64,000 nucleotides of DNA, from NCBI RefSeq assembly GCF_025602895.1, contig NW_026516264.1, forward strand, positions 219,031 to 283,030, read 5' to 3'. Under the pieces are notes generated by a model that made no database searches, had not been told where the DNA came from, and saw nothing but the letters and a program-made list of their open reading frames with translations. Each line of letters starts with the position of its first letter. The first letter of the stretch is position 1. Below are positions 31,539-61,660 of this stretch, piece after piece. Position numbers and translations under genes: made by a program. The DNA comes from Polychytrium aggregatum. Lineage: Eukaryota; Chytridiomycota; Chytridiomycetes; Polychytriales.

Positions 31539-34500
31539 ATGTCAGAGGAGCAGCAGGCGCCGGTTAACGCCGCGGTGCAGCTCAACGTACCTGTCGGCGG
31601 ATCCCTCGAGAAAATCGACAGTGAATCTCCAGTCGAGAGCAATTTTGGCAGAGGGCGCTTTCGCCGTCGCAGAAAGGATAAGAAACAGAGTGATCCCGCC
31701 GTTCCGTTTCTTCAGCTGTTTCGCTTTGCCGATGCCACCGACCGTCTTCTTATCGCGTAAGTATCGAGGACCCACGGTTCGAGCGGCCAAGGTGGAGATA
31801 TAGCATGCGCTTGACGCTTCCTTCGGCGAATGGAACTTCCTGTTGCGACGCCGCGTCGACCATGTCGAGAGCGTCTGGTCAGCCATCACATGCAGCTTGG
31901 CCGATGGACAGGAGGCTATGCATCTCTGCCGACGCGAGCAGAAATGTTACGGCAGTTGCTGCGCCGTTGTGTTCGTTTGGTGAGGCAGGTTCGATATCTT
32001 GGCCGTGCTCTGCCCGCTCACTAACAACTAGCTCAATGCCTCACATACAGGCTGGGAGTTATTACCAGTATGGGCATCGGTGCCCTCATTCCGAGCGCCG
32101 TCCTGGTGCTTGGAAGCTTCTTGGGCAGCGCCAGCAGCCTGGCTGCGTCGCCGAGCCTCCCGGCCGGATCCCACATGGACGCAAGTGGCAACTTGGTTCT
32201 GGCAAATGGACAAATTATCACCAAGACCCAGCTCCTGGCACAAGTTGACCCGCAGCCCATGTACAACATCATCCTGATCTTTGTGTATTTTGCGATCGCG
32301 ATGATGTTCTGCGGGTACTTCACCCAAGTCTTCTGGGTTATTGCCGGTGAAAACCAGACCCGTCGTATCCGTCGGCTATTCGTGCGCTGCGTCTTGCGCC
32401 AAGATATGGGCTGGTTCGATCTGGCCGGCGAGGGTTCGCTCACAACTCGCCTCGCTCAAGACACTCAGCTCATCCAGGATGGCATCTCGGAGAAGGCCGG
32501 AATGTGCATACAGTCCGTGAGTCAGTTCGTAACAGGATTTGTCATTGCATTTACCAAAGGTACGTTGCCTTGAATGGGAGTTTGATCGATTCGCTCCTGA
32601 GAGGCTGAGGGCTTCGTGAGAAGTGGGCACAGGTGTAAAGAACCGCATGGAGACGGTTGTGAACATCTTGGTGGCTGCGCCAGATGAAATGACCAAGCCA
32701 TAACCACATGTAGGACCAAAACTCGCCGTGATTCTGCTTGCGGCTCTCCCGCTCCTTGGCATCGTCGGCACTTTGATGGTTCGCGCGATCAGCAAGTTCA
32801 CCGGAAAGGGCCAAGATGCTTATGCCGGTGCAGGCGCAATCGCTGAGCAAGTGTTCTTTGGTATTCGCACTGTCTACTCGTTCTCCCTCCAGAAGCGGTT
32901 TTCTGACAAGTACGAAAAGGCTCTGGAGCAAGCCTTCATCACGGACTACAAGAAGGGCCAGGCATTGGGAACGGGATTCGGCTCGTTTATGCTTGTCATG
33001 TTTTCCACTTATGCTCTGGCCTTTTGGTATGGATCCAAGCTCGTCCTCAACTCGGAAATGCAGGGACAAGATGTCTTGGTTGTGTTCTTCTCGATGATCA
33101 TGGGCGCCATGGCCCTGATCATGCTCCCAACAAACCTGTCGGCCGTCTCCAATGCCCGTGGTGCTGCCTTCAAGATCTACGCCATCATCGACCGTGTTCC
33201 CACCATCGACTCGCTCTCGACCGAGGGAAAGAAGCCCGCCGAAGTCACCGGCTTTATCCAGTTCAAGGATGTCCACTTCACCTATCCCTCCCGCCCGGAC
33301 ACCAAGATCCTCCACGGCCTCACTCTCGACATTGAATCTGGCAAGACCGTGGCCTTTGTGGGGCCGTCCGGGTCGGGCAAGTCGACGATTGTGCAGCTGA
33401 TCCAGCGATTTTACGACCCCTCCGGTACGACTGGGTGATGAGCGATGGGTGATGGGTGATGGGTGATGGGTGATGGGTGATGGGTGATGGGTGATGGGTG
33501 ATGGGTGATGGGTGATGGGTGGTAGTGGTGGAATGTTGGCTGCGATCAGTCAAGACCAGATGGGAGGCGAGAGTTTGCGGAGCAGAACAACGACACATCA
33601 TCTCACACCACGACACACCATCTTACACCATGCTACCTCACACCACACACCACCACATCATACATCGCACATCACACACCACACATTACATACCACGCCA
33701 CGCCCGCCAGCCGGCGACGTCGTCCTCGACGGAAACAACCTCAAGGACCTCAACGTCTCGTGGCTGCGCCAGCACATCGGAATCGTCGGCCAGGAGCCCG
33801 TGCTGTTCAACACCTCCATCAAGCAAAACATCCTCATGGGTGCCATCGAGGAGGTCACCGAGTCGCAGCTGATCAACGCCTGCAAGATGGCCAACTGCCA
33901 CGCATTCATCACAAAGCTCCCTCAAGGCTATGACACCTCGGTCGGCGAACACGGCGGCATGCTCTCTGGCGGCCAGAAGCAGCGCATCGCCATCGCTCGT
34001 GCTCTGATCAAGAACCCCCGGATCCTGCTGCTGGACGAAGCCACCTCGGCCCTCGACACCCAGTCCGAGCGCATCGTGCAGGATGCCCTCGACAACGCCT
34101 CCAAGAACCGCACGACGATCGTGATTGCGCACCGGCTGTCGACGATCCGCAACGCCGACGTGATCGTCGTCCTTGACCATGGAGTGATAGCCGAGATCGG
34201 CAACCACAGCGAGCTGCTCAAGAAAGGCGGGGTGTATGCCGGGCTTGTCGAGAAGCAGCGAATCAAGATGGAAGTCGAAACCACCCTCGCGAAGAACCTC
34301 AGCGGCTCCAAGGACTCTGGCATGAACAAACAACAGGAAGGAATTGTTGAGGAAATCGAGGTCGAGAAGCAGGCCGATACTGTTCCCCAAAATGTTGTCG
34401 AGTCTGTCAAGGACGAAAACGGTCAGGTTGTCGAGACTCGCCTTGTTTTGGATACGCACGAAGCACACCGCCAGGCTCTCAAGGCCGAAAAGGACCAAAA

Positions 34501-37272
34501 GAAGAAGGAGCTCGATGCTCTCAAGAAGCAAGACGCCCCGATTTGGCGCGTCATTGAGATGATGAAGCCTGAATGGGGGTACCTTGCCATTGGCATTATC
34601 GGAGCACTTGGTGCTGGAACGGTACGTGGTTTTGGCTGCACTTGTCATCGGAGGAGAGATGCTTACCCAGTGACGGGCACCATGTCGTTTCTGCCTAATT
34701 GCTCAGTCGCTGGTTCATTGATCTGATTGCTGCTTTGCTTTGTTGTCGTATCATTATCCAGGTGTTCCCAGTGTTTGCTCTGATCTTCTCGACCGTCAGC
34801 ATCATATTGCTTGATCCATCCGAGATCGATCCCGGACCATTCCAAGGCGCCAACCTGTACTCGTTTTTGTTCTTGATCATCGGTTTCGTCGCATTTCTGT
34901 CCTACAACCTGCAATTTTATGGGTTCGAAAAAGCCGGCGCAGCCATGTCCCGTCGCATTCGTATTATGACCTTCAAGGCTATGCTCCGCCAGGAGATTGG
35001 GTATTACGACGAAGAAGGCCACGGCGTCGGCGCTCTCACATCGAAATTGGCGGTGGATGCATCCAAAGTTGGCGAACTCGTTACAAAGGTCTGGGGAGAC
35101 GTCGCCCAGCTCATCATCACAGCCCTATGCGGACTCTTGATTGCCTTCATCAATTCCTGGCAGCTCACCCTGGTAAGAGCTTTAGTCGGCAGCGAATGAC
35201 ACTGTATTCGAGGCACATACCCAAACACAATATGATGCTTTGACTGCTCGCCGGGTCTCTGTGAGAGATGGTTATCCTTGGGCTCTAACTCGATCCCTTG
35301 AACCATTTTTGCAGATCGTGTTGTGTGCCACACCGTTCCTTGCGATCGGCTCCTTCTTTGAAGTCCGCAGCCGCCGTGGATTTGAAGATGCATCCAAGAA
35401 GGCTTATGAAGAATCCGGAGAAATCGCTGCCGAGGCGTTCAAAGAAATCCGTACCGTTGCCGCGTTGTGTCGACAAGGCTATTTCGAGGACAAGTACGAC
35501 GCCAGCATTGATCATCCACACAAGCTCGCCTTGCGAAAGGCCCAGGTCTCGTCCCTTGGAAACGGATCCAACCAGGCAGCTTCCCAGCTTGCGAACGCTC
35601 TTGGCTTCTATGCCGGCATCCGTCTCGCTCTGGCAGGCATCATCGACTTCAAGCCTGTGTTTACTGTTCTGATGGTATGTGTTTACTCGACGGAATCGCT
35701 GGCGCGGGTTTGTTCCTCATCATCTTTGCACTATCATGTGTGGGCACGACAAGTATATGGGTCTCGTCGACATGACCATCTCCTGCGAGTGATACCGCCC
35801 GAGTATAGAAAATCGTCCCGAAGCAAATCGCAGCCATTTCGCAGAAGCTTAACTCAATCAAATATCATCCCCGCTCCGTTTGACTACAGGCCGTCATGAT
35901 CACCGCACAAGGCCTCGGTCGCGCATCCAATTTCGTGGCCACGTATACGGCGGCAAAGGTTGCTGCCATCAGCGTAAGTCTATATACCTTTCCAATGAAC
36001 ATGCAAAATATTGCACATTGCGAAGACAATGAGTCCCGCTTGGTGCAAGAACATGCTTCTTGTCAGCCTCGGAGCGCATGTGTCTATACTTCTTTGAGCG
36101 CATGTGTTGCACAGATTTGATGATCTCATCGGAGCTGCACCTCTTCTCGGATGCCAGACATTCGAGCTCCTCGATCGCGAGACTTCTATTGACCCAGACA
36201 AACCGGGTCTCGAGGTGGATAAAATCGACGGAGCCTTTGAATTCAAGAACATCGAGTTTCGCTATCCCGCCCGCCCGCTTCAGGCCATCTTTGAAGGCAA
36301 GTTCAACCTCAAGGGCGAGAAGAACACCACTGTCGCCTTTGTCGGCCCCTCTGGCTGCGGAAAATCCACCACTATCGGCATGCTCCAGCGTTGGTACGAT
36401 GCCGCTGCGGGCGAGGTCTTGGTCGACGGCAGGAACGTAAAGGAATACCAGCTCCACAATCTGCGCAAGCACATGGCCCTGGTCGGCCAGGAGCCCGTCT
36501 TGTTCGACATGACCATCAAGGAAAACATCCTGGCCGGAACCACACGAACCGATGTCACGGACCAAGAGATTGAAGAAGTTGCTAAGATGGCGAACATGAT
36601 GGTGTTCATTGGAGATTTCCCGGCACGCTTTGGTGAGTGACTGCATCAAACAGAAGCGAGCCCCTCCCCAACAACGAGAGCTGCACGAGTGTTTGTTGTG
36701 TTGCTGCTCGATATGAAATCTTGGATGCTAAGTGCGGACATTTCTCGACTCACATTGCTATGATGTGGCTGTCCAGATACTCGAGTTGGCGACAAGGGAT
36801 CGCAGCTCTCTGGCGGTCAGAAGCAGCGAGTCGCCATCGCACGCGCCCTGATCCGCAATCCCCGCTTCCTGCTCTTGGACGAAGCAACGTCAGCCCTGGT
36901 GAGGAGAGAATGTGTGATTGCGATTGATCTCTGGGTTTCGAATGACGACAGCCGGCTGGCCGAGTGTGGCATCGCGGGAGAACCAGCGGTCGAATGAGCG
37001 AGCTGTTCTTGCACGAGCGGAGCTGACCAAGATTCTCCCACCAGGACTCTGAATCCGAGAAGCACGTACAGCAGGCAATCGACAACGCCATCAAACAAGG
37101 CGGCCGCACCACAATCACGATCGCACACAGGCTCTCCACCATCCAGGACGCCAATATGATTGTCGTTATTAAAGACGGAGAGGTGGTCGAGAAGGGCACC
37201 CACTTTGAACTCCTGGCTCTCAACGGAATCTACAATGCTCTCGTGAAGCAGCAGGATCTCAACGCCACGTAA
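31539..37272 (+). CDS. Full-size ABCB (P-glycoprotein-type) transporter, copy 1, intact
   Basis: Ten exons (31539-31756, 32051-32559, 32714-33424, 33711-34621, 34763 or 34762-35172, 35315-35674, 35890-35973, 36158-36632, 36777-36898, 37045-37272) add up to 1343 codons including the stop, with all phases consistent. The order is TMD1-NBD1-TMD2-NBD2. NBD1 has Walker [10 protein letters not shown], signature LSGGQKQR and Walker [16 protein letters not shown]2 has [17 protein letters not shown] and [11 protein letters not shown] joined by splicing to DSESE. Both H-loops ([18 protein letters not shown]) are present, so both ATP sites look competent. The protein would pump hydrophobic compounds or lipids/peptides across a membrane; the substrate cannot be read from sequence. 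A charged linker lies between NBD1 and TMD2. Intron 3 contains a minisatellite. The gene faces its paralogue tail to tail. Confidence 0.93.
33432..33520. repeat. Heptamer minisatellite in ABC1 intron 3
   Basis: About eleven uninterrupted copies of the 7-bp unit GATGGGT plus a degenerate start. A CA/CCA-rich low-complexity stretch follows to about 33700. The identical arrangement is found inverted in ABC2. Confidence 0.9.
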
Positions 37273-39193: not shown

Positions 39194-40177
39194 ATGGACC
39201 AACTCCAGGCCCAAATCGTTGCCCTCCAGGAGGAACTGGTCCTCCTCCGGACCACACACTCTTCCGCCGCCCCGCAGCTCCCGCACATGCCGACCCCGGA
39301 CAAGTTCGACGGCACCAGGTCAAAGTTCCGCCCCTTCGTCAACCAGTGCCGCCTGCTCATGATGCTCCAGGCATCCAGGTTCCCGTCCGAGCAAGTCAAG
39401 GTGGGTTACGTCTTGAGTTTGCTCACTGGTCCGGCCCTCCAGTGGGCGACTCCCTTGATCGAATCGAACGATCAAATCCTGCACTCGTTCGACTCGTTCA
39501 TGGAACGCTTTCGCCAAGCGTTTGACGATCCCGACCGCACCCATACTGCCGAGCTGCTCCTTTCCTCCATGGCACAGGGCAACCGCTCGTGCATGGATTA
39601 TGCCTCAGAGTTCCTCCGCGTTGCCGCCGACCTTCCATGGAACGACGAAGCCAAGATATCCGCCTTCCGCCGTGGCCTGTCGAGGGAGATCAAGCAGCGC
39701 CTCTCCTTCATCAACCCTCTCCCTCTCCGCTTGGTCCCGTTCGTCGAGCGTTGCCTCAAGATCGATGCACGCATCATCGAGCTCAACAACGAGCTCCGAA
39801 ACACTGGCCCTGTTTCCTTCGGCACCCAGGCCTTCAACTCCCGACCTCCGTCCTTCCAGCCGCCCGCCCAGGAGCCTCCGGTTCTCTACTCCGAGCCGAT
39901 GCAGATCGACGCCGCCGTCGTCAGCCGCCTGACCCCCGAGGAGAAGAACCGCCGTTTCCAGGAGCGCCTCTGCTTCCGCTGTGGCAAGCCCGGCCACGTC
40001 GCCAAGTCCTGCCCCCTCAAGTCCGGCTCCCGTGCTCCCGCCTCTGGTTCCCGCTTCCCTGGCTCCCGTCCTCAGGCTCCCGGCTCCCGTCCCCGTTCGA
40101 AGGTTGTCCGAACCATCGTCTACGATGATGGTGAGGAGGAACACTTCGAGTCGGGAAACGACCAGGCCCAGATCTAA
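39194..40177 (+). CDS. gag: G1 Gag
   Basis: 327 residues from ATG 39194 (MDQLQAQIVALQEELVLLRT). It has a Ty3-type capsid region (GTRSKFRPFVNQC, VGYVLSLLTGPALQWATPL, FRQAFDDPDRTHTAE) and a CCHC zinc knuckle CFRCGKPGHVAKSCP near residue 265. The stop TAA at 40175-40177 lies inside a predicted hairpin. Expected to form the virus-like particle in the cytoplasm. Confidence 0.93.
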   Translation: MDQLQAQIVALQEELVLLRTTHSSAAPQLPHMPTPDKFDGTRSKFRPFVNQCRLLMMLQASRFPSEQVKVGYVLSLLTGPALQWATPLIESNDQILHSFDSFMERFRQAFDDPDRTHTAELLLSSMAQGNRSCMDYASEFLRVAADLPWNDEAKISAFRRGLSREIKQRLSFINPLPLRLVPFVERCLKIDARIIELNNELRNTGPVSFGTQAFNSRPPSFQPPAQEPPVLYSEPMQIDAAVVSRLTPEEKNRRFQERLCFRCGKPGHVAKSCPLKSGSRAPASGSRFPGSRPQAPGSRPRSKVVRTIVYDDGEEEHFESGNDQAQI

Positions 40178-40195
40178 GTGGAGGCTTAGATCTGG
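40153..40195 (+). promoter_or_regulatory. G1 gag-pol -1 frameshift signal
   Basis: Slippery heptamer G GGA AAC in the gag frame at 40153-40159, an 8-nt spacer, then an 11-bp perfect stem CCAGATCTAAG / CTTAGATCTGG with a 6-nt loop (40168-40195). The gag TAA is in the left arm. The pol frame is -1 to gag and open across the junction. Confidence 0.75.
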
Positions 40196-43100
40196 AGCCG
40201 TCCCCCCTTCCTCCAGAAGCAAGCGTCGATGGTAAGGAGCATGAGGTAAGTGTCGAGCGCATGGCTATGTGTGGAATGATCAATGTAGTCGGTGGTGGAT
40301 CGCACTCTGTCAAACCCGCCTCTTCTAAGGGCACATCTGGCTCCCAGATGTCTTTGACAGAGCTCCCGATCTCCACACCACCTGCGAACTTGGTCATCTG
40401 CTCGAACCATGCTGCCGACACTGATCTCTGCTCCGAGCCTTCTTCGTGCGTTTCTTCGATTTCTTCTTCTTCTCCCGTTTTTCCGCTTCTCTTGTTCTCC
40501 CTTCTGGTCGCTCCCTCTCTTGCCAACTTCTCGTCGATTCTGGTGCCTCCGGCAACTTCATCGACGAGAGCTTTGTTGACCGCTTCTCGGTCCCCCTCGT
40601 TTCCAAATCCACTCCCCTCCCTGTCCAAGGTGTCGATGGCCAGCCACTTTCTTCCGGCCCCATCACTTTTGAGACGGAACCCCTCAAGATTGTTCTTGGG
40701 GACTACACTCAACACCTTTCCTTTGATGTCATTAAGTCTCCCCACCAACCCGTTATCCTTGGCTATCCCTGGCTGCAGTCCATCGAACCCAGGCTTCACT
40801 GGGCTCGTGGACTCCTTTGCCTTCCCCGTCCTGCAAGCCACATCCTCAAGGTTGTGGATGCCTCTTCCCTCCCTTCCGTTTCTTCCGTTTCTCCTTCTCC
40901 CCTTCCTCTTGTTGGCGACACACCCAATGTTTTCCCTCGTGCCTCTACCGACACCACTGTGGTGCTCGCTTCTTCGCCTCGCACCGTTTGTACTCGCGAA
41001 GATGATCAGAATAAAGTGATCGCTCAACGTTATTCTGATTGTGTTCCGAGTGAGGTGCCCTGTTCCTGTGCTGCTCGTCCTGGTCCCTCCGGTCTCGTCT
41101 CCGTCCGTCCTGGTCTCCCCGGTCCCGTTGCTCCCAGCCCCGCTCCTGTCCGTGTCCAAGCGATCAGGTACAAGTCGTTGGAGCAGTCCGTCCTCGACAC
41201 ACAGTCTAGCCCCGACCCCCTGACTGTGTTCCAAGTCCTCGTCCTTCCTGCCACCGATCCGGATCCGACGCCCCTCTCGACGTCGATCCCCGAGGAGTAC
41301 AAGTCGTTTGGCTCAGTCTTCTCGAAGCAGGAAGCCGACTCGTTGCCCCCGCACCGGACGTACGACTGCCCGATCGACCTGGAGCCCGGCAAGACCCCCA
41401 AGTTCGGACCACTCTACTCCCTGTCAGAGCCCGAACTCAAGGCCCTTCGTGAATACCTCGACGACAACCTCGTCAAAGGGTTCATCCGTCCTTCGTCCTC
41501 TCCCGCCGGTTCCCCGATCCTCTTCGTCAAGAAGAAGGACGGCTCTCTGCGTCTCTGCGTGGACTATCGCGCATTGAACACGATCACGGTCAAGAATCGT
41601 TATCCCTTACCGTTGATCAACGAGATGCTGGACCGAGTCCGGGACGCGAAGGTGTTCACGAAGCTGGACCTCCGCGGGGCCTACAACCTGCTGCGTATCC
41701 GCGCAGGCGACGAGTGGAAGACGGCCTTCCGCACTCGTTACGGCCAGTTCGAGTACTTGGTGATGCCCTTTGGACTCACCAATGCTCCGGCCACCTTCCA
41801 GCACTTCATCAACGATGTCCTTCGTGAGGAGCTGGACAACTTTGCGATTGCCTACCTTGACGACATCTTGATTTACAGCGCTGACCCCACTCAGCATGCA
41901 AATCACGTCAAGCAGGTCCTGGCCAAGCTCCAGGCTGCAAAGTTGTACTGCAAGCTGGAGAAGTGCGAGTTCTCCAAGGACAAGGTCTCGTTCCTCGGCT
42001 ACGTCATCTCGCCCAAGGGTATCGAGATGGAACGAGCAAAGCTCTCCGCCATTGTCGACTGGCCCGTCCCCCGCAATGTCTCCGACCTTCGCTCCTTCAT
42101 TGGGTTCTCGAACTTTTACCGTCGCTTCATTGACGGATATGCCAAGATCGCCGGTCCGCTCACGCTCCTGTTCAAGAAGTCCCAGGTCTTCCGCTGGTCC
42201 CCCGACGCCCACAAGGCTTTCCAGTCCCTCAAGGAAGCCTTCGTCTCCGAGCCCGTCCTTGCGCACCCCGACCCATCCAAGCCCTTTGTCGTGGAGTCTG
42301 ATGCCTCAGACTTTGCGATCGGATGCGTCCTGTCCCAGCGCGGCTCCGATGGCCACCTGCACCCGTGCTCCTTTCACTCCCGCACGCTCATGGATGCTGA
42401 ACGCAACTACAGCATCTATGAGAAGGAGCTCTTGGCCATCAAGGAGGCATTCGAGGTCTGGCGACACTACCTCGAAGGCGCCCAACACCCAGTCCAAGTC
42501 CTTACCGACCACAAGAACTTGGAATACCTGGCGTCGGCCCGCATCCTCAACCAGCGACACGCCCGGTGGTCGCAGTTCCTGTCTCGGTTCGACCTCCGGA
42601 TTCAATACCTCCCCGGTCCAAAGAACGGCAAGGCCGACGCTCTCTCCCGCCGCCCGGACTACGTCCCTCCGTCCGCACCTGTGTCCAAGGAGCCTCCCCC
42701 GTTGCTGCCACCTTCGGCGTTCGCCTGTGCCGTCCGTCGCTCCTCGGATGCAAGTTCCACTCGCCCTGTGGACTTGCTCAAGCTCATTGCCGAGGAGCAA
42801 CCAAAGGACCCGTCCCTGGACCAGCTCCGCAACGATCCCAAGTATGTCCTGAAGGATGATCTCCTCACCTTCATGGACAAGATCGTTGTGCCAGAGTCGT
42901 GTCGAGTCCCCGTCCTCAAGTCATGCCACGACCCTGTCGCTGTTGGACATCCTGGCATTCGGCGGACCCGAGCACTGATCTCGAGGCAGTTCTGGTGGCC
43001 CTCGATCCGCAAGGATGTCCAGGCTTATGTCTCGACGTGCGACACTTGTGCACGCTCGAAAGTCCCTCGACATAAGCCGTTTGGATACTTGCAGCCCCTC

Positions 43101-44219
43101 CCGACGGCATCGCGACCCTGGTCTCTGGTGACGATGGACTTTATCACCGACCTCCCCGAGTCCAACGGCAAGACTTGCATCTTTGTCGTCGTCGATAGCC
43201 TGACCAAGATGGCCCACTTCCTTCCCTGTCGGTCCCTCCCAAGTGCCGAGGAAACAGCGTCGCTGTTCCTCGACAACATCTTCCGCCTCCACGGTCTCCC
43301 GGACAACATCGTCTCGGACCGAGGAAGCCAGTTCACCTCGCGGTTCTGGCAGGCCCTGTGCTCGGAACTCGGCATCAAGACCAGTCTGTCCACGGCGTTC
43401 CATCCCCAAACCGATGGACAGACTGAGCGGGTCAACCAAGTCATCAACCAGCATCTCCGCTGCTACACCTCGTACCAGCAGGATGACTGGGCGATGCTGC
43501 TCCCGCTCGCCGAGTTCTCATACAACAACCTCGAGCACACCTCGACCAAGGCCTCCCCGTTCCTGGCGACTTACGGCTTCAACCCTCGATTCGAGTCTCC
43601 GGTCCTTCCTTCCAGTCTCGATGTCCCCTCCGCGACCGACCGAGTCGAACACCTTCAGCACAACTTGGCGTTGCTGAAGGAGAACCTCGAGAAGGCCAAG
43701 GCGGACTACAAGCGCTTTGCGGATGCCCACAAGTCCGACGCTCCCAAGTTCGCTCCTGGCGATCAAGTCTGGGTCCTAACACGCAACATCAAGACCACCC
43801 GTCCAAGCAAGAAGTTGGACTACCAGCGCATCGGACCCTACAAGATCGTCGAAGCCATCGGTTCCCTCGCCTTCCGCCTCGACCTTCCCAAGGATCTCAA
43901 GATCCATCCGGTGTTCCATGTCTCCCTCCTCGAGCCCCACAAGTCGAACACCCTCCCCGGCCGCATCCAAGACCCTCCTCCGCCAGTCCGCGTCGACGAC
44001 CACTTGGAGTATGAAGTTCAGGAGATCCTCGACTCCAAGCTGGTCCGCGGTAAGTTGAGCTATTTCGTTGATTGGAAGGGCTACTCGACTGATCATCGCA
44101 GCTGGGAGCCCGCCAACTACGTTAACGCTCCCGACAAGATAGCCGACTTCCACCGCCGGTACCCCGACAAGCCTGGACTTATTGTTCGTAGGAGTGGCCG
44201 TAGTTTGGGGAGGGGATGA
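40159..44219 (+). pseudogene. pol: G1 Pol, one-base deletion
   Basis: The -1 frame from the slip site runs to about 40480 and then shifts. Compared with G3, G1 lacks one C in a T/C-rich stretch (TTTTTCC against TTTTCTCC), so the following 1.2-kcodon frame starting near 40490 is out of phase. That frame otherwise carries all domains: protease LLVDSGASGNFID, RT with YLDDILIYS, RNase H DASDFAIGCVLSQ, integrase HHCC and D,D,E (MDFITDLP, NIVSDRGSQF, QTERVNQ), GPY and a chromodomain. The stop TGA abuts the 3' LTR. Read through the original frame, translation would end at 41019, before RT. So G1 can probably move only with Pol from another copy. Confidence 0.85.
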
Positions 44220-52093: not shown

Positions 52094-53077
52094 ATGGACC
52101 AACTCCAGGCCCAAATCGTTGCCCTCCAGGAGGAACTGGTTCTCCTCCGGACCACACATTCTTCCGCCGCCCCACAGCTCCCGCACATGCCGACCCCGGA
52201 CAAGTTCGACGGCACCAGGTCAAAGTTCCGCCCCTTCGTCAACCAGTGCCGCCTGCTCATGATGCTCCAGGCATCCAGGTTCCCGTCCGAGCAAGTCAAG
52301 GTGGGTTACGTCTTGAGTTTGCTCACTGGTCCGGCCCTCCAGTGGGCGACTCCCTTGATCGAGTCGAACGATCAAATCCTGCACTCGTTCGACTCGTTCA
52401 TGGAACGCTTTCGCCAAGCGTTTGACGATCCCGACCGCACCCACACTGCCGAGCTGCTCCTTTCCTCCATGGCACAGGGCAACCGCTCGTGCATGGATTA
52501 TGCCTCAGAGTTCCTCCGCGTTGCCGCCGACCTTCCCTGGAACGACGAAGCCAAGATCTCCGCCTTCCGCCGTGGCCTGTCGAGGGAGATCAAGCAGCGC
52601 CTCTCCTTCATCGACCCTCTCCCTCTCCGCTTGGTCCCGTTCGTCGAGCGTTGCCTCAAGATCGATGCACGCATCATCGAGCTCAACAACGAGCTCCGAA
52701 ACACTGGCCCTGTTTCCTTCGGCACCCAGGCCTTCAACTCCCGCACCCCGTCCTTCCAGCCGCCCGCCCAGGAGCCTCCGGTTCTCTACTCCGAGCCGAT
52801 GCAGATCGACGCCGCCGTCGTCAGCCGCCTGACCCCCGAGGAGAAGAACCGCCGCTTCCAGGAGCGCCTCTGCTTCCGCTGTGGCAAGCCCGGCCACGTC
52901 GCCAAGTCCTGCCCCCTCAAGTCCGGCTCCCGTGCTCCCGCCTCTGGTTCCCGCTTCCCCGGCTCCCGTCCTCAGGCTCCCGGCTCCCGTCCCCGTTCGA
53001 AGGTTGTCCGAACCATCGTCTACGATGATGGTGAGGAGGAACACTTCGAGTCGGGAAACGACCAGGCCCAGATCTAA
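52094..53077 (+). CDS. gag: G3 Gag
   Basis: 327 residues, nearly identical to G1 Gag (for example SFIDPLPLRL where G1 has SFINPLPLRL). Same capsid core and CCHC knuckle CFRCGKPGHVAKSCP. Stop TAA at 53075-53077. Confidence 0.94.
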   Translation: MDQLQAQIVALQEELVLLRTTHSSAAPQLPHMPTPDKFDGTRSKFRPFVNQCRLLMMLQASRFPSEQVKVGYVLSLLTGPALQWATPLIESNDQILHSFDSFMERFRQAFDDPDRTHTAELLLSSMAQGNRSCMDYASEFLRVAADLPWNDEAKISAFRRGLSREIKQRLSFIDPLPLRLVPFVERCLKIDARIIELNNELRNTGPVSFGTQAFNSRTPSFQPPAQEPPVLYSEPMQIDAAVVSRLTPEEKNRRFQERLCFRCGKPGHVAKSCPLKSGSRAPASGSRFPGSRPQAPGSRPRSKVVRTIVYDDGEEEHFESGNDQAQI

Positions 53078-53095
53078 GTGGAGGCTTAGATCTGG
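53053..53095 (+). promoter_or_regulatory. G3 gag-pol -1 frameshift signal
   Basis: Heptamer G GGA AAC at 53053-53059 in phase with gag (codons TCG GGA AAC), spacer GACCAGGC of 8 nt, stem CCAGATCTAAG / CTTAGATCTGG of 11 bp with loop TGGAGG at 53068-53095. After a -1 slip the frame is open into Pol with no stop. Confidence 0.78.
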
Positions 53096-56000
53096 AGCCG
53101 TCTCCCCTTCCTCCAGAAGCAAGCGTCGATGGTAAGGAGCATGAGGTAAGTGTCGAACGCATGGCTATGTGTGGAATGATCAATGTAGTCGGTGGTGGAT
53201 CGCACTCTGTCAAACCCGCCTCTTCTAAGGGCACATCTGGCTCCCAGATGTCTTTGACAGAGCTCCCGATCTCCACACCACCTGCGAACTTGGTCATCTG
53301 CTCGAACCATGCTGCCGACACTGATCTCTGCTCCGAGCCTTCTTCGTGCGTCTCGTCGATTTCTTCGTCTTCTCCCGTTTTCTCCGCTTCTCTTGTTCTC
53401 CCTTCTGGTCGCTCCCTCTCTTGCCAACTTCTCGTCGATTCTGGTGCCTCCGGCAACTTCATCGACGAGAGCTTTGTTGACCGCTTCTCGGTCCCCCTCG
53501 TTTCCAAATCCACTCCCCTCCCTGTCCAAGGTGTCGATGGCCAGCCACTTTCTTCCGGCCCCATCACTTTTGAGACGGAACCCCTCAAGATTGTTCTTGG
53601 GGACTACACTCAACACCTTTCCTTTGATGTCATTAAGTCTCCCCACCAACCTGTTATCCTTGGCTATCCCTGGCTGCAGTCCATCGAACCTAGGTTCCAC
53701 TGGGCTCGTGGACTCCTTTGCCTTCCCCGTCCTGCAAACCACATCCTCAAGGTTGTGGATGCCTCTTCCCTCCCTTCCGTTTCTTCCGTTTCTCCTTCTC
53801 CCCTTCCTCTTGTTGGCGACACACCCAATGTTTTCCCTCGTGCCTCTACCGACACCACTGTGGTGCTCGCTTCTTCGCCTCGCACCGTTTGTACTCGCGA
53901 AGATGATCAGAATAAAGTGATCGCTCAACGTTATTCTGATTGTGTTCCGAGTGAGGTGCCCTGTTCCTGTGCTGCTCGTCCTGGTCCCTCCGGTCTCGTC
54001 TCCGTCCGTCCTGGTCTCCCCGGTCCCGTTGCTCCCAGCCCCGCTCCTGTCCGTGTCCAAGCGATCAGGTACAAGTCGTTGGAGCAGTCCGTCCTCGACA
54101 CACAGTCTAGCCCCGACCCCCTGACTGTGTTCCAAGTCCTCGTCCTTCCTGCCACCGATCCGGATCCGACGCCCCTCTCGACGTCGATCCCCGAGGAGTA
54201 CAAGTCGTTTGGCTCAGTCTTCTCGAAGCAGGAAGCCGATTCGTTGCCCCCGCACCGGACGTACGACTGCCCGATCGACCTGGAGCCCGGCAAGACCCCC
54301 AAGTTCGGACCGCTCTACTCCCTGTCAGAGCCCGAACTCAAGGCCCTTCGTGAATACCTCGACGACAACCTCGTCAAAGGGTTCATCCGTCCTTCGTCCT
54401 CTCCCGCCGGTTCTCCGATCCTTTTCGTCAAGAAGAAGGACGGCTCTCTGCGTCTCTGCGTGGACTATCGCGCATTGAACACGATCACGGTCAAGAATCG
54501 TTACCCCTTACCGTTGATCAATGAGATGCTGGACCGAGTCCGGGACGCGAAGGTGTTCACGAAGCTGGACCTCCGCGGGGCCTACAACCTGCTGCGTATC
54601 CGCGCAGGCGACGAGTGGAAGACGGCCTTTCGCACTCGTTACGGCCAGTTCGAGTACTTGGTGATGCCCTTTGGACTCACCAATGCTCCGGCCACCTTCC
54701 AGCACTTCATCAACGATGTCCTTCGTGATGAACTGGACAACTTTGCGATTGCCTACCTTGACGACATTTTGATTTACAGCGCTGACCCCACTCAGCATGC
54801 AAATCACGTCAAGCAGGTCCTGGCCAAGCTCCAGGCTGCAAAGTTGTACTGCAAGCTGGAGAAGTGCGAGTTCTCCAAGGACAAGGTCTCATTCCTCGGC
54901 TACGTCATCTCGCCCAAGGGTATCGAGATGGAACGAGCAAAGCTCTCCGCCATTGTCGACTGGCCCGTCCCCCGCAATGTCTCCGACCTTCGCTCCTTCA
55001 TTGGGTTCTCGAACTTTTACCGTCGCTTCATTGACGGATATGCCAAGATCGCCGGTCCGCTCACGCTCCTGTTCAAGAAGTCCCAGGTCTTCCGCTGGTC
55101 CCCCGACGCCCACAAGGCTTTCCAGTCCCTCAAGGAAGCCTTCGTCTCCGAGCCCGTCCTTGCGCACCCCGACCCATCCAAGCCCTTTGTCGTGGAGTCT
55201 GATGCCTCAGACTTTGCGATCGGATGCGTCCTGTCCCAGCGCGGCTCCGATGGCCACCTGCACCCGTGCTCCTTCCACTCCCGCACGCTCATGGATGCTG
55301 AACGCAACTACAGCATCTATGAGAAGGAGCTCTTGGCCATCAAGGAGGCTTTCGAGGTCTGGCGACACTACCTCGAAGGTGCCCAACACCCAGTCCAAGT
55401 CCTTACCGACCACAAGAACTTGGAATACCTGGCGTCGGCCCGCATCCTCAACCAGCGACACGCCCGGTGGTCGCAGTTCCTGTCTCGGTTCGACCTCCGG
55501 ATCCAGTACCTCCCCGGTCCAAAGAACGGCAAGGCCGACGCTCTCTCCCGCCGCCCGGACTACGTCCCTCCGTCCGCACCTGTGTCCAAGGAGCCTCCCC
55601 CGTTGCTGCCACCTTCGTCGTTCGCCTGTGCCGTCCGTCGCTCCTCGGATGCAAGTTCCACTCGCCCTGTGGACTTGCTCAAGCTCATTGCCGAGGAGCA
55701 ACCCAAGGACCCGTCCCTGGACCAGCTCCGCAACGATCCCAAGTATGTCCTGAAGGATGGTCTCCTCACCTTCATGGACAAGATCGTTGTGCCCGAGTCG
55801 TGTCGAGTCCCCGTCCTCAAGTCATGCCACGATCCTGTCGCTGTTGGACATCCTGGCATTCGGCGGACTCGGGCACTGATCTCGAGGCAGTTCTGGTGGC
55901 CCTCAATCCGCAAGGATGTCCAGGCTTATGTCTCGACGTGCGACACTTGTGCACGCTCGAAAGTCCCTCGACATAAGCCGTTTGGATACTTGCAGCCCCT

Positions 56001-57120
56001 CCCGACGGCATCGCGACCCTGGTCTCTGGTGACGATGGACTTTATCACCGACCTCCCCGAGTCCAACGGCAAGACTTGCATCTTTGTCGTCGTCGATAGC
56101 CTGACCAAGATGGCCCACTTCCTTCCCTGTCGGTCCCTCCCAAGTGCCGAGGAAACAGCGTCGCTGTTCCTCGACAACATCTTCCGTCTCCACGGTCTCC
56201 CGGACAACATCGTCTCGGACCGAGGAAGCCAGTTCACCTCGCGGTTCTGGCAGGCCCTGTGCTCAGAACTCGGCATCAAGACCAGTCTGTCCACGGCGTT
56301 CCACCCCCAAACCGATGGACAGACTGAGCGGGTCAACCAAGTCATCAACCAGCATCTCCGCTGCTACACCTCGTACCAGCAGGATGACTGGGCGATGCTG
56401 CTCCCGCTCGCCGAGTTCTCATACAACAACCTCGAGCACACCTCGACCAAGGCCTCCCCGTTCCTGGCGACTTACGGCTTCAACCCTCGATTCGAGTCTC
56501 CGGTCCTTCCTTCCAGCCTCGATGTCCCCTCCGCGACCGACCGAGTCGAACACCTTCAGCACAACTTGGCGTTGCTGAAGGAGAACCTCGAGAAGGCCAA
56601 GGCGGACTACAAGCGCTTTGCGGATGCCCACAAGTCCGACGCTCCCAAGTTCGCTCCTGGCGATCAAGTCTGGGTCCTAACACGCAACATCAAGACCACC
56701 CGTCCAAGCAAGAAGTTGGACTACCAGCGCATCGGACCCTACAAGATCGTCGAAGCCATCGGTTCCCTCGCCTTCCGCCTCGACCTTCCCAAGGATCTCA
56801 AGATCCATCCGGTGTTCCATGTCTCCCTCCTTGAGCCCCACAAGTCGAACACCCTCCCCGGCCGCATCCAAGACCCTCCTCCGCCAGTCCGCGTCGACGA
56901 CCACTTGGAGTATGAAGTCCAGGAGATCCTCGACTCCAAGCTGGTCCGCGGTAAGTTGAGCTATTTCGTTGATTGGAAGGGCTACTCGACTGATCATCGC
57001 AGCTGGGAGCCCGCCAACTACGTTAACGCTCCCGACAAGATAGCCGACTTCCACCGCCGGTACCCCGACAAGCCTGGACTTATTGTTCGCAGGAGTGGCC
57101 GTAGTTTGGGGAGGGGATGA
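53059..57120 (+). CDS. pol: G3 Pol (PR-RT-RNaseH-INT-chromodomain), intact
   Basis: Open -1 frame of 1354 codons from the slip site to TGA at 57118-57120, directly against the 3' LTR. Protease LLVDSGASGNFIDESF; RT with KLDLRGAYNLLRI and YLDDILIYSADPTQH; RNase H DASDFAIGCVLSQRGS and DHKNLEYLASARIL; integrase HHCC (HDPVAVGHPGIRRT ... CDTCARSK) with D,D,E residues in TMDFITDLPE, NIVSDRGSQFT and QTDGQTERVN; GPY module RIGPYKIVEA; chromodomain EVQEILDSKLVRGKLSYFVD then WKGY and WEPANYV. The chromodomain suggests targeting to marked chromatin. An ATG at 53161 exists but the conserved frame begins upstream. Confidence 0.95.
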   Translation, partial: RPGPDLSGGLDLEPSPLPPEASVDGKEHEVSVERMAMCGMINVVGGGSHSVKPASSKGTSGSQMSLTELPISTPPANLVICSNHAADTDLCSEPSSCVSSISSSSPVFSASLVLPSGRSLSCQLLVDSGASGNFIDESFVDRFSVPLVSKSTPLPVQGVDGQPLSSGPITFETEPLKIVLGDYTQHLSFDVIKSPHQPVILGYPWLQSIEPRFHWARGLLCLPRPANHILKVVDASSLPSVSSVSPSPLPLVGDTPNVFPRASTDTTVVLASSPRTVCTREDDQNKVIAQRYSDCVPSEVPCSCAARPGPSGLVSVRPGLPGPVAPSPAPVRVQAIRYKSLEQSVLDTQSSPDPLTVFQVLVLPATDPDPTPLSTSIPEEYKSFGSVFSKQEADSLPPHRTYDCPIDLEPGKTPKFGPLYSLSEPELKALREYLDDNLVKGFIRPSSSPAGSPILFVKKKDGSLRLCVDYRALNTITVKNRYPLPLINEMLDRVRDAKVFTKLDLRGAYNLLRIRAGDEWKTAFRTRYGQFEYLVMPFGLTNAPATFQHFINDVLRDELDNFAIAYLDDILIYSADPTQHANHVKQVLAKLQAAKLYCKLEKCEFSKDKVSFLGYVISPKGIEMERAKLSAIVDWPVPRNVSDLRSFIGFSNFYRRFIDGYAKIAGPLTLLFKKSQVFRWSPDAHKAFQSLKEAFVSEPVLAHPDPSKPFVVESDASDFAIGCVLSQRGSDGHLHPCSFHSRTLMDAERNYSIYEKELLAIKEAFEVWRHYLEGAQHPVQVLTDHKNLEYLASARILNQRHARWSQFLSRFDLRIQYLPGPKNGKADALSRRPDYVPPSAPVSKEPPPLLPPSSFACAVRRSSDASSTRPVDLLKLIAEEQPKDPSLDQLRNDPKYVLKDGLLTFMDKIVVPESCRVPVLKSCHDPVAVGHPGIRRTRALISRQFWWPSIRKDVQAYVSTCDTCARSKVPRHKPFGYLQPLPTASRPWSLVTMDFITDLPESNGKTCIFVVVDSLTKMAHFLPCRSLPSAEETASLFLDNIFRLHGLPDNIVSDRGSQFTSRFWQALCSELGIKTSLSTAFHPQTDGQTERVNQVINQHLRCYTSYQQDDWAMLLPLAEFSYNNLEHTSTKASPFLATYGFNPRFESPVLPSSLDVPSATDRVEHLQHNLALLKENLEKAKADYKRFADAHKSDAPKFAPGDQVWVLTRNIKTTRPSKKLDYQRIGPYKIVEAIGSLAFRLDLPKDLKIHPVFHVSLLEPHKSNTLPGRIQDPPPPVRVDDHLEYEVQEILDSKLVRGKLSYFVDWKGYSTDHRSWEPANYVNAPDKIADFHRRYPDKPGLIVRRSGRSLGRG

Positions 57121-57747: not shown

Positions 57748-59756
57748 CGTGATTTGTGCTTTCTTCACGGCAACTTGGTGGGGGTGCTCGAGAGTGGCGT
57801 TATATTTGTCTTCAAAGTAGTGCTGACGGTTGAGGGCAGTGACGGTGCGGATTTCCTTGAAAGCCTCGCCGGCGATCTCGCCCGAGTCCTCATACAGCTT
57901 CTTGGTTTCATCCTCGAACTTGTGGCGTAGACGTGCTTCGAGGAAGGAGGCAGCGCCGATGAAAGGAGAAGCAACAACGAGGATCTGTGCGCGAGGAAGC
58001 AATCGCATTGCGAAGCGCCATTCGCGGTTAGTGCGGTCCTCGTTAGTCTCGATATAGCGCGGGATCCTTTGCGGAATGACGACCCAAGCACAGTAAGTGC
58101 CGAGCGGTCGAACAGAGCTACACCAGTAATCCGGACTGCTGTGTGCGTACCAGAGTGAGTTGCCAGGAGTTGATGAAAGCCACAAGGAATCCAGCAACCG
58201 CCGTGACGATGAGCTGGGCGACGTCGCCCCAGACCTTCGTGACCAGATCGCCGACTTTGAGAGCATCGACGGCGAGTCTCGACGTGAGGGCGCCGAGACT
58301 GTGGCCCTCCTCGTCATAGAACCCAACCTCTTGCCTCAACAGCGCGGCAAAGGTCAGGAGGCGGATTCGTCTCGATATGGCTGCACCGGCCTTTTCGAAA
58401 CCATAGAGCTGAAGGATGATCGAAAAGCACGCAATGACTCCCATAACGACAAAGAGGAACGAGTACAGATTTGCTCCCTTGAACGGCCCAGGATCGATCT
58501 CGGATGGATCAAGCAATATGATGCTGACGGTCGAGAAGATCAGAGCAAACACGGGGAAGACCTAAAGCCGATGCGAGTGATGTGTAAGCAAACAGGGAGC
58601 GTGGTTCTCCGACATGCGGTTTGAGGGCACAGCATCCGCGATCCAAAGTCGCCCTGGCGAACGCAAGCCCAGAGCATCCATACCCACCACAGCTGCACCG
58701 GAAGCGCCGAGGCACCCAAGGATAATATATCCCCACTCAGGCTTCATGAGCGCGAGAACGCGCCGGATGGGGGCGTCCTGCTTCTTGAGCTCGCGTCGCC
58801 TGTCTTTCTCCTGTTTCTTCTCTGCTCGAACAGCATTACGATGATCCTCGCTTGACTCCAAAACAAGGCGGGTCTCGGCGGTGTGGTCGTCCTTATCGGA
58901 GACGATCTGAACTTCGTCCTCGCCATTGCCATTCTCCTCGACGACGGTGTCGCCAGAAGAAGTCAGTGTCCTGCGGCGAGAAACACCAAGGGTGGTTTCG
59001 ACTTCCATCTTGATCCGCTGCTTCTCGACAAGCCCGGCATACACCCCGCCTTTCTTGAGCAGCTCGCTGTGGTTGCCGATCTCGGCTATCACTCCATGGT
59101 CAAGGACGACGATCACGTCGGCGTTGCGGATCGTCGACAGCCGGTGCGCAATCACGATCGTCGTGCGGTTCTTGGAGGCGTTGTCGAGGGCCTCCTGCAC
59201 GATGCGCTCGGACTGGGTGTCGAGGGCCGAGGTGGCTTCGTCCAGCAGCAGGATCCGGGGGTTCTTGATCAGAGCACGAGCGATGGCGATGCGCTGCTTC
59301 TGGCCGCCAGAGAGCATGCCGCCGTGTTCGCCGACCGAGGTGTCATAGCCTTGAGGGAGCTTTGTGATGAATGCGTGGCAGTTGGCCATCTTGCAGGCGT
59401 TGATCAGCTGCGACTCGGTGACCTCCTCGATGGCACCCATGAGGATGTTTTGCTTGATGGAGGTGTTGAACAGCACGGGCTCCTGGCCGACGATTCCGAT
59501 GTGCTGGCGCAGCCACGAGACGTTGAGGTCCTTGAGGTTGTTTCCGTCGAGGACGACGTCGCCGGCTGGCGGGCGTGGCGTGGTATGTAATGTGTGGTGT
59601 GTGATGTGCGATGTATGATGTGGTGGTGTGTGGTGTGAGGTAGCATGGTGTAAGATGGTGTGTCGTGGTGTGAGATGATGTGTCGTTGTTCTGCTCCGCA
59701 AACTCTCGCCTCCCATCTGGTCTTGACTGATCGCAGCCAACATTCCACCACTACCA

Positions 59757-59839
59757 CCCATCACCCATCACCCATCACCCATCACCCATCACCCATCACC
59801 CATCACCCATCACCCATCACCCATCACCCATCGCTCATC
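59757..59839. repeat. Heptamer minisatellite in ABC2 intron
   Basis: Same 7-bp repeat as in ABC1 intron 3, inverted (ACCCATC on the plus strand), with the same copy number by eye and identical flanks. Confidence 0.9.
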
Positions 59840-61660
59840 ACCCAGTCGTACCGGAGGGGTCGTAAAATCGCTGGATCAGCTGCACAATCGTCGACTTGCC
59901 CGACCCGGACGGCCCCACAAAGGCCACGGTCTTGCCAGATTCAATGTCGAGAGTGAGGCCGTGGAGGATCTTGGTGTCCGGGCGGGAGGGATAGGTGAAG
60001 TGGACATCCTTGAACTGGATAAAGCCGGTGACTTCGGCGGGCTTCTTTCCCTCGGTCGAGAGCGAGTCGATGGTGGGAACACGGTCGATGATGGCGTAGA
60101 TCTTGAAGGCAGCACCACGGGCATTGGAGACGGCCGACAGGTTTGTTGGGAGCATGATCAGGGCCATGGCACCAATGATCATCGAGAAGAACACAACCAA
60201 GACATCCTGGCCTTCCATGTCCGAACTAAGAACCAGCCGGGATCCGTACCAAAAGGCCAAGCCGTAGGACCCAAAGATGACGAGCATGAAGGATCCAAAG
60301 CCGATGCCGAGCGACAGACCTTTCTTGAAGTCAGTCACCTCGGCCTTTGCAAGTTCCTTGTCGTACTTTTCAATGAACCGCTTCTGGAGGGAGAACGAGT
60401 AGACGGTTCGGATTCCACCAATGACTTGCTCAGCGATTGCGCCTGCACCGGCATAAGCATCTTGGCCCTTTCCGGTGAACTTGCTGATCGCGCGAATCAT
60501 CAAAGTGCCAACGACACCAAGAAGTGGAAGTGAAGCCAACAGGACCAGGGCAAGCTTTGGACCCTTGACAAATGCAATGACAAATCCGGCAATGAACTGG
60601 GAAATGGATTGGATACACATGCCGGCCTTCTCCGAGATGCCGTCTTGGATCAGGGCTGTGTCTTGAGCGAGGCGGGTCGTGAGCGACCCTTCGGCAGCAA
60701 GATCGAACCACCCAACGTCCTGACGGAGCACCGACTTGACAAAGAGCTGACGAATGCGGCGGGTCTGGTTTTCGCCCGAGAGGACCCAGAAGAGCTGGGT
60801 GAGGTAGCCCGAAAAGAGCATGGCGATGCCGAAATACACAAAAATCAAGATGGTGTTGTAGAGGGGCTGGGGGTCGACGCTGGCGAGCAGCTGAGCCTTG
60901 GTGACGACCTGGCCGCCAGGCAGGATGTAGTTGCCGTTGGCATCAGTGGCCAGCTGGGAAGTCGCAAAGAGGTTCTTGGAGCCCCCGAGGAAGGAGCCCA
61001 GGACAAGAATGGAACATGGCATCAGGGCGCCAATGACTGCGCTTGTGATCAGACCGAAGCTGTGGAGCGAATGAGACAGGGAGCCAGTGAGCGAACGCAT
61101 GGAAGAATGGTTTGGCAGTTGGCAGTGGATCATGCGGATACAGCGCCGACACAACATGCGACAATGGACAGGACGAGCTGGATCCGGGCAGCTGTCAAGA
61201 CTATAGCGGAGCCCCTGGGAATGAGAGGTGACACGGCTGAAGGGAGTGACAGAGACCGGTCCCGCTTCCAAGACGACGGCCAGTCGATCGAGACAGCCCT
61301 GGTCTCGCTGCTACTGCGTCGAACTCACAATATCAAGAGCCTGTCGCGCGTATCTGCAAAGCGAAAGAGTTTTCCAAAGGAGACGACCGGTTCCTTTTCC
61401 TTTGGCGGCGGGGCATTGGCGTTGTCGCCTTTGGCCTTCCGGGCGAAGAGGGCCAGCGGGGAGCGCTTTCGAGGAGCGTTGTCGGTGGTGGCCGGAGCCG
61501 GCAGGGAGTCCTCGGCGGGGGCCTGATCGAGGGAGCCGACCGGATCAGCTTCCTTGGTGACCGCCATGGCGTCGAATGTGTCGGTTCAGGGTGTGCTTGG
61601 GATGATGGGTGTATTGGAGGTTTCTTGGGTGCGGATGGGCAGGCCGCGGCGTCGAGCAAG

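Follow-up and report, generated by a model that had tools for sequence, protein, structure and literature searches.

The −1 frameshift mechanism itself is well known, and what is new here are the signals in the chytrid elements described below. Many chromoviruses have a single reading frame. The −1 frameshift of HIV-1 is stimulated by a stem-loop, the frameshift pseudoknot of IBV has a geometry of 11 bp and 6 bp, and the gag-pro site of SRV-1 and MPMV combines the heptamer G_GGA_AAC with a short stem 1. Some readthrough signals have a stop codon near a stem or a pseudoknot. The pseudoknot of SRV-1 has been described (PMC5175198). A survey of 2003 is reported to have found 28 of 51 animal elements to use classical heptamers and to have pol in the −1 frame; the same source names G_GGA_AAC and G_GGU_UUU among the shiftiest heptamers with mammalian ribosomes and gives a +1 shift for the two types of plant element whose frames are separate (PMC5009743). 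The mammalian gene PEG10, derived from a Ty3/gypsy element, is reported to contain G_GGA_AAC and, after a 5-nt spacer, a pseudoknot, with a gag-like 0 frame and a pol-like −1 frame in which the protease follows soon after (PMC2800197, PMC4598141), and its reading frames overlap by 61 nt (PMC2800197). In SARS-CoV-2, the 0-frame stop is located in stem 1, and frameshifting was reported to be halved when the near stop was removed (PMC8168617). In the literature as judged by titles and the beginnings of abstracts, with subscription journals mostly outside, such a signal in chytrid elements was not found.

The window was a stretch of 64,000 nt from Polychytrium aggregatum, and genome-wide counts covered the 418 contigs (64.7 Mb) of the source genome. 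The window contained three Ty3/gypsy elements of the chromovirus type, G1, G2, and G3. The gag of G3 (52094–53077, forward strand) encoded a capsid and a zinc knuckle, matching the Pfam families Retrotrans_gag, DUF4939, Ty3_capsid, and zf-CCHC. The pol of G3, taken from its first ATG (53161–57120, forward strand) on the basis of the ORF list and Pfam, lay in a frame that was open back to the heptamer described below. The pol domains of both G3 and G2 were arranged as protease, RT, RNase H, integrase, SH3_Tf2-1, and a C-terminal chromodomain, and the zinc knuckle and protease of G2 matched Pfam under the curated cut-offs. LTRs of at least 300 nt were found around G3 (51589/57121) and G1 (38690/44220). 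The element cluster was flanked by ABC-transporter ORFs at 33512–34726 and 58562–59764 (with 59838–61271), and these were overlapped by an inverted pair of 1575 nt that was 94% alike (32713–34287 and 58989–60563). For a neighbouring ABC-transporter ORF, the four best matches with a name all fell in chytrids (Chytriomyces, Rhizoclosmatium, Physocladia, and Nowakowskiella), so that the host is probably chytrid-like.

The frameshift signal of G3 spanned positions 53053–53115 on the forward strand. It began with the slippery heptamer G_GGA_AAC (GGGAAAC, 53053–53059), positioned in the gag register with the pol ORF in the −1 frame. The gag frame, which the initial annotation had ended at GGA AAC, read TCG GGA AAC GAC CAG GCC CAG ATC TAA and thus continued for five more sense codons before the stop. 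The heptamer was followed by the 8-nt spacer GACCAGGC (53060–53067), which is shortened to 5 nt if GGC (53065–53067) pairs with GCC (53097–53099), an extension present in the minimum-energy fold. Stem 1 comprised 11 bp between the 5′ arm CCAGATCTAAG (53068–53078), which included the gag TAA at 53075–53077, and the 3′ arm CTTAGATCTGG (53085–53095), and was assigned from sequence, covariation, and fold. The loop TGGAGG (53079–53084) formed the 5′ arm of stem 2 and was complementary to CCTCCA (53110–53115), with five core pairs that covaried. The 3′ arms of the two stems were separated by the 14-nt loop 2 (53096–53109). The G3 loop together with CCTCCA 14 nt past stem 1 most likely represents an H-type pseudoknot, a prediction that goes beyond a plain hairpin. 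The hairpin proposed earlier around the gag stop was present, with the TAA in its stem, as part of a larger structure of which the second helix had been missed. An Rfam search of positions 52950–53250 with E values up to 1 gave a miRNA family as its sole match (E = 0.51), far under the gathering score. Two donor-like GTAAG sites were located just 3′ of the G3 cassette (53132 and 53146); such sites also occurred in G2 and were absent at the aligned place in the G4 family described below.

All pieces of the cassette were located in G3, G1, and G2 where the initial annotation had placed them, with the heptamer in the gag register. The G1 cassette (40153–40215, forward strand; 43-nt core 40153–40195) had the same structure as that of G3. 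Its pol was broken by an indel about 300 nt 3′ of the heptamer, as judged from frames and sequence; the slipped frame stopped at 41019 and the main pol ORF (40446–44219) was in a different frame. G1 is a damaged copy, and the description of three elements carrying the cassette was right for the cassette itself and overlooked the interruption downstream. On the reverse strand, the G2 cassette (50276–50234) contained the heptamer (50276–50270), the spacer, and a stem 1 of CCGGTTC(T)AAG and CTTGAACCGG (arms within 50261–50234), with the gag stop at 50254–50252. Stem 2 of G2 (within 50249–50215) was formed by complementarity of the loop GAAGGC (50249–50244) with GCCTTC (50220–50215), 13 nt past stem 1. 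The 8-nt spacer was identical in G1/G3 and G2, as had been stated, and two stem pairs were correctly described as changed on both sides between them.

Compared with the known systems, the chytrid design was close to that of PEG10, both having G_GGA_AAC, a short spacer, and a pseudoknot, predicted in the case of the chytrid elements. The spacer of PEG10 is 5 nt long whereas that of the window elements was 8 nt (5 nt if the GGC/GCC extension of G3 forms), and the chytrid elements, unlike PEG10, carried RT, integrase, and chromodomain between LTRs. A heptamer, a short spacer, a pseudoknot, and a 0-frame stop inside stem 1 are also found at the coronavirus ORF1a/1b junction, which differs in its heptamer (U_UUA_AAC), the three-stem fold of SARS-CoV-2, and its unrelated genes. 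The stop codon inside the stem, regarded at first as an unusual detail, is therefore a feature already described for SARS-CoV-2 (PMC8168617). The SRV-1/MPMV gag-pro site shares G_GGA_AAC and an H-type pseudoknot, and differs in belonging to a retrovirus and in its short stem 1. Ty3/gypsy and other LTR elements in animals and fungi whose pol lies in the −1 frame have classical heptamers, as here, but the available text does not describe a pseudoknot for them (PMC5009743).

A third family, G4, was reached by a genome search with Pfam DUF4939 (copies L081–L084). Its gag was 63% identical to that of G2. The G4 cassette consisted of GGGAAAC, the spacer GACTTGGC, which differed from that of the other two families, and the stem CCGATTCTGA/TCAGAATCGG enclosing a TGA stop; its loop GGAGAC was complementary to GTCTCC 13 nt past stem 1. 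Loop 1 would be 2 nt long in G4 and 0 nt in G1 and G3 unless a terminal pair opens, since every loop base of the latter would be paired. G3, G2, and G4 aligned without gaps from the heptamer through stem 2, and both helices were kept. In this alignment, 95.6% of the 45 cells were paired, a value reached by 1 of 500 shuffles, and at most 51.1% were paired when the partner strand was slid by 1–3 columns. Both sides were changed in 6 of the 15 pairs (4 of 10 in stem 1 and 2 of 5 in stem 2), a number also reached by 1 of 500 shuffles. The same alignment contained no excess of further pair types (172 of 500 shuffles reached the count), and G2 broke two inner columns of stem 1 by one bulged base. 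The covariation of stem 2 rests on three aligned families only, and since G3, G2, and G4 are related, it is support and not proof.

The comparison was extended to distant families through six short junctions, of which five were readable and one (L097) was dropped as it had no gag-pol junction. One junction each was taken from seven families (G3, G2, G4, F94, F95, F96, and F98; copies L094, L095, L096, and L098 for the last four), and an F95-family copy with a broken gag frame (L099) was left out of the family count. These seven families are a sample, about 10 more gag places or groups in a listing of at least 150 having been left out. The heptamer, of the form X_XXY_YYZ and in the 0-frame register, was GGGAAAC in G1, G2, G3, G4, F96, and F98, and GGGTTTT (G_GGU_UUU) in F94 and F95. 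In F94 and F95, the gag TGA was located one codon 3′ of G_GGU_UUU, the stems were GTCCGGCGG/CCGCCGGAC or GTCCGACGG/CCGTCGGAC with one pair altered on both sides, and a second helix was formed by the loop TCAGGAG or CAGGAG with a downstream CTCCTG(A). F96 and F98 had G_GGA_AAC and a 10-bp stem, GCGCCAGAGC/GCTCTGGCGC, with the gag stop located in the loop. Stem 2 was not found in F96 and F98, where the best run was 3 bp (shuffle P values of 0.98 and 0.99, respectively). The loop of stem 1 in copies L096 and L098 contained the palindrome GGCC right after the gag stop, which could permit a loop-loop contact. The spacers, for which about 5–9 nt is typical of −1 signals, were 8 nt in G1–G4, 5 nt in F96 and F98, 6 nt in F94 (4 nt with a longer stem), and 6 nt in F95. 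Overall, a second helix of 6–7 bp was present 13–16 nt past stem 1 in five of the seven sampled families.

The heptamer alone was at chance level in the window (10 observed vs 8.36 expected) and is therefore uninformative. The structures were scored with approximate stacking energies and with 3000 shuffles; on that scale, the combined score of stem 1 and stem 2 was reached by 1 (G3), 6 (G2), 1 (G4), 13 (F98), and 0 (F96, F94, and F95) shuffles, the low counts of F96 and F98 being a contribution of the stem. The best score of 20 other window heptamers of six slippery types was −22.0, compared with −26.4 to −40.7 for G3, G2, G4, F94, and F95, and the best of the unrelated GGGAAAC sites (six of eight scored) was −21.8, compared with −24.0 to −40.7 across the seven families. 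Given stem 1, the shuffle P values of stem 2 were 0.030 for G3, 0.036 for G2, 0.029 for G4, 0.0016 for F94, and 0.046 for F95; a per-family value of about 0.03 is modest. The z-scores of the nested folds, computed without pseudoknots, were −3.53, −1.29, −3.03, −2.28, −3.32, −4.12, and −2.50 for G3, G2, G4, F96, F98, F94, and F95, respectively, and the G2 hairpin by itself was unremarkable.

The exact 43-nt cassette occurred in the genome at 90 places for the G1/G3 type and 182 for the G2 type, and since the reversed-pattern controls gave 0 each, the whole cassette is not a product of chance. A search that tolerated one mismatch found 98 G1/G3 stem-loops; 93 of these were exact and 90 were exact across the whole cassette, and all 182 G2 stem-loops found with the same tolerance had the exact 43-nt cassette. 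Likewise, the F94/F95 heptamer and stem arm were found at 36 places, all exact with two mismatches allowed (controls 0). This uniformity within families mainly reflects recent spread, not selection. The pattern TCGGGAAACGAC, where not before C, was found at 23 places vs 8 for the reversed control; 19 of the 23 were examined, of which five were already known (four G4 and one F96) and the 14 others comprised one G4, five F96-type, and eight unrelated places. The five altered G1/G3 stem-loops were two in which the gag TAA was replaced by CAA, two with a G-C pair at the top of stem 1 changed to G-U, and one with a loop change that breaks one pair of stem 2. In the two CAA copies (L001 on contig C138 and L002 on C380), the heptamer and the spacer were intact, and the frame gained four codons until the next stop (356 vs 352 aa). 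Other variants were two G1/G3-type copies (L041 and L069, on C11 and C65) with a 6-nt duplication between the heptamer and the stem, giving a 14-nt spacer, and a copy with an intact stem and a heptamer one base short (L065, C370:3300–5200). In addition, an internally deleted copy (L085, C381:46000–49700) had one continuous 1137-aa open frame, with a capsid-domain front fused to pol.

The pol frame was the −1 frame and was open from the heptamer past the first ATG in all seven sampled junctions, one per family. Counted from the heptamer, the first ATG of this frame was preceded by 36 open codons in G3, 38 in G2, 18 in G4, 98 in F96, 48 in F98, 40 in F94, and 58 in F95. Each stretch singly was not rare (shuffle P values of 0.09 to 0.56); the product of these values was about 2e-5 by our own arithmetic, for families that are not independent. 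In F94, no more than 4 open codons of the −1 frame preceded the heptamer and the 0 frame ended one codon after it, and any switch is therefore confined to the surroundings of the heptamer. The open −1 frame noted earlier thus held in all seven families, but conservation of its peptide through protein selection was not upheld: G3 and G2, compared after the gag stop in the −1 frame, had no clear excess of third-position changes (5, 8, and 8 at positions 1, 2, and 3, respectively). The transframe peptide is weak evidence, and selection on the protein is not supported by the codon-position counts.

The site is probably a programmed −1 frameshift signal joining gag and pol, with a predicted H-type pseudoknot as the stimulator. 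From the observed sequence, register, open frame, cross-family conservation, and paired changes, we infer the folding, the slippage, and its rate. In a ribosome translating gag, the P and A sites would be occupied by GGA AAC (or GGU UUU) during a pause at the pseudoknot. The pseudoknot would be located at the mRNA entry channel, with the gag stop in a stem 1 of 10–11 bp and with the loop paired, in a stem 2 of 5–6 bp, to bases some 14 nt past stem 1. A minority of ribosomes would slip one base back, so that GGA AAC is re-read as GGG AAA (GGU UUU as GGG UUU), and continue to make Gag-Pol; the remaining ribosomes would terminate a few codons later, within or near stem 1, and release Gag. A −1 cassette giving Gag-Pol, as first proposed, is the best reading of a pol in the −1 frame in seven of seven families, a slippery heptamer, and a covarying structure. 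Alternatively, as in HIV-1, the stem-loop may be sufficient to drive the shift at the heptamer, and the match between the loop and the downstream bases would then be coincidental or minor. In F96 and F98, the heptamer and the 10-bp stem occur without a second helix, the nested fold of G3 is strong in its own right (z = −3.53), and its GGC/GCC extension would compete with the pseudoknot geometry. However, stem 2 recurs 13–16 nt past the stem in five families and includes two compensated pairs in the three that can be aligned, and a stem-loop acting by itself is considered unlikely.

Other routes to Pol have far lower probability than either form of frameshifting. Once gag has terminated, Pol could be translated separately from its first ATG, by re-initiation or by internal initiation, since pol has downstream ATGs (53161 in G3) and a product from there would retain the protease and the later domains. 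The first ATG has no fixed place, being 18–98 codons past the heptamer, and therefore entry by frameshifting is indicated rather than re-initiation; the preceding frame is open in seven of seven families and the heptamer and its structure would be left unexplained, which makes initiation at the ATG very improbable. Splicing out of the gag stop would also join gag and pol, and donor-like sequences exist, namely the GTAAG sites downstream in G3 (53132 and 53146) and G2 and GGTAAGA at the G4 gag end. The sites in G3 and G2 are 3′ of the gag stop and so unable to remove it, G4 has none at the aligned place, and this route is judged equally remote. The location of the stop in a stem, with a possible pseudoknot 3′ of it, resembles some readthrough signals. 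Structure-directed readthrough of the stop codon is nevertheless hardly credible, since the frame of pol is −1 and the CAA copies L001 and L002 gained only four codons; as a route to pol, readthrough is excluded by the frame geometry.

The elements offer a mobile relative of a design like that of PEG10. At 38% identity over 79%, the G4 gag matched an Ascaphus protein named PEG10 in its source, the only one of 17 Gag relatives so named. Nine of the 17 were examined, and GN, the residues that G_GGA_AAC would encode, was found near the Gag end in P0004 and two Ascaphus proteins (P0005 and P0006) and not in the other six. Among the nine, P0004 alone ended in ...ESGND like the gags of the window, an ending that, as a peptide, cannot reveal the heptamer. 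Searches of viral_contigs with the G3 pol and with P0004 found no relatives outside the genome. That a cassette of G_GGA_AAC and pseudoknot was ancestral to the fungal and animal chromoviruses, and that the mammalian PEG10 signal descends from it, is a doubtful but conceivable extension. If true, this would make the cassette a recoding device of great age that still has mobile relatives. Within one genome, the occurrence of two heptamers, and of stems that have or lack a second helix, allows frameshift parts to be compared under the ribosomes of one host. The sequences suggest that −1 frameshifting serves several retrotransposon families of this chytrid-like fungus.
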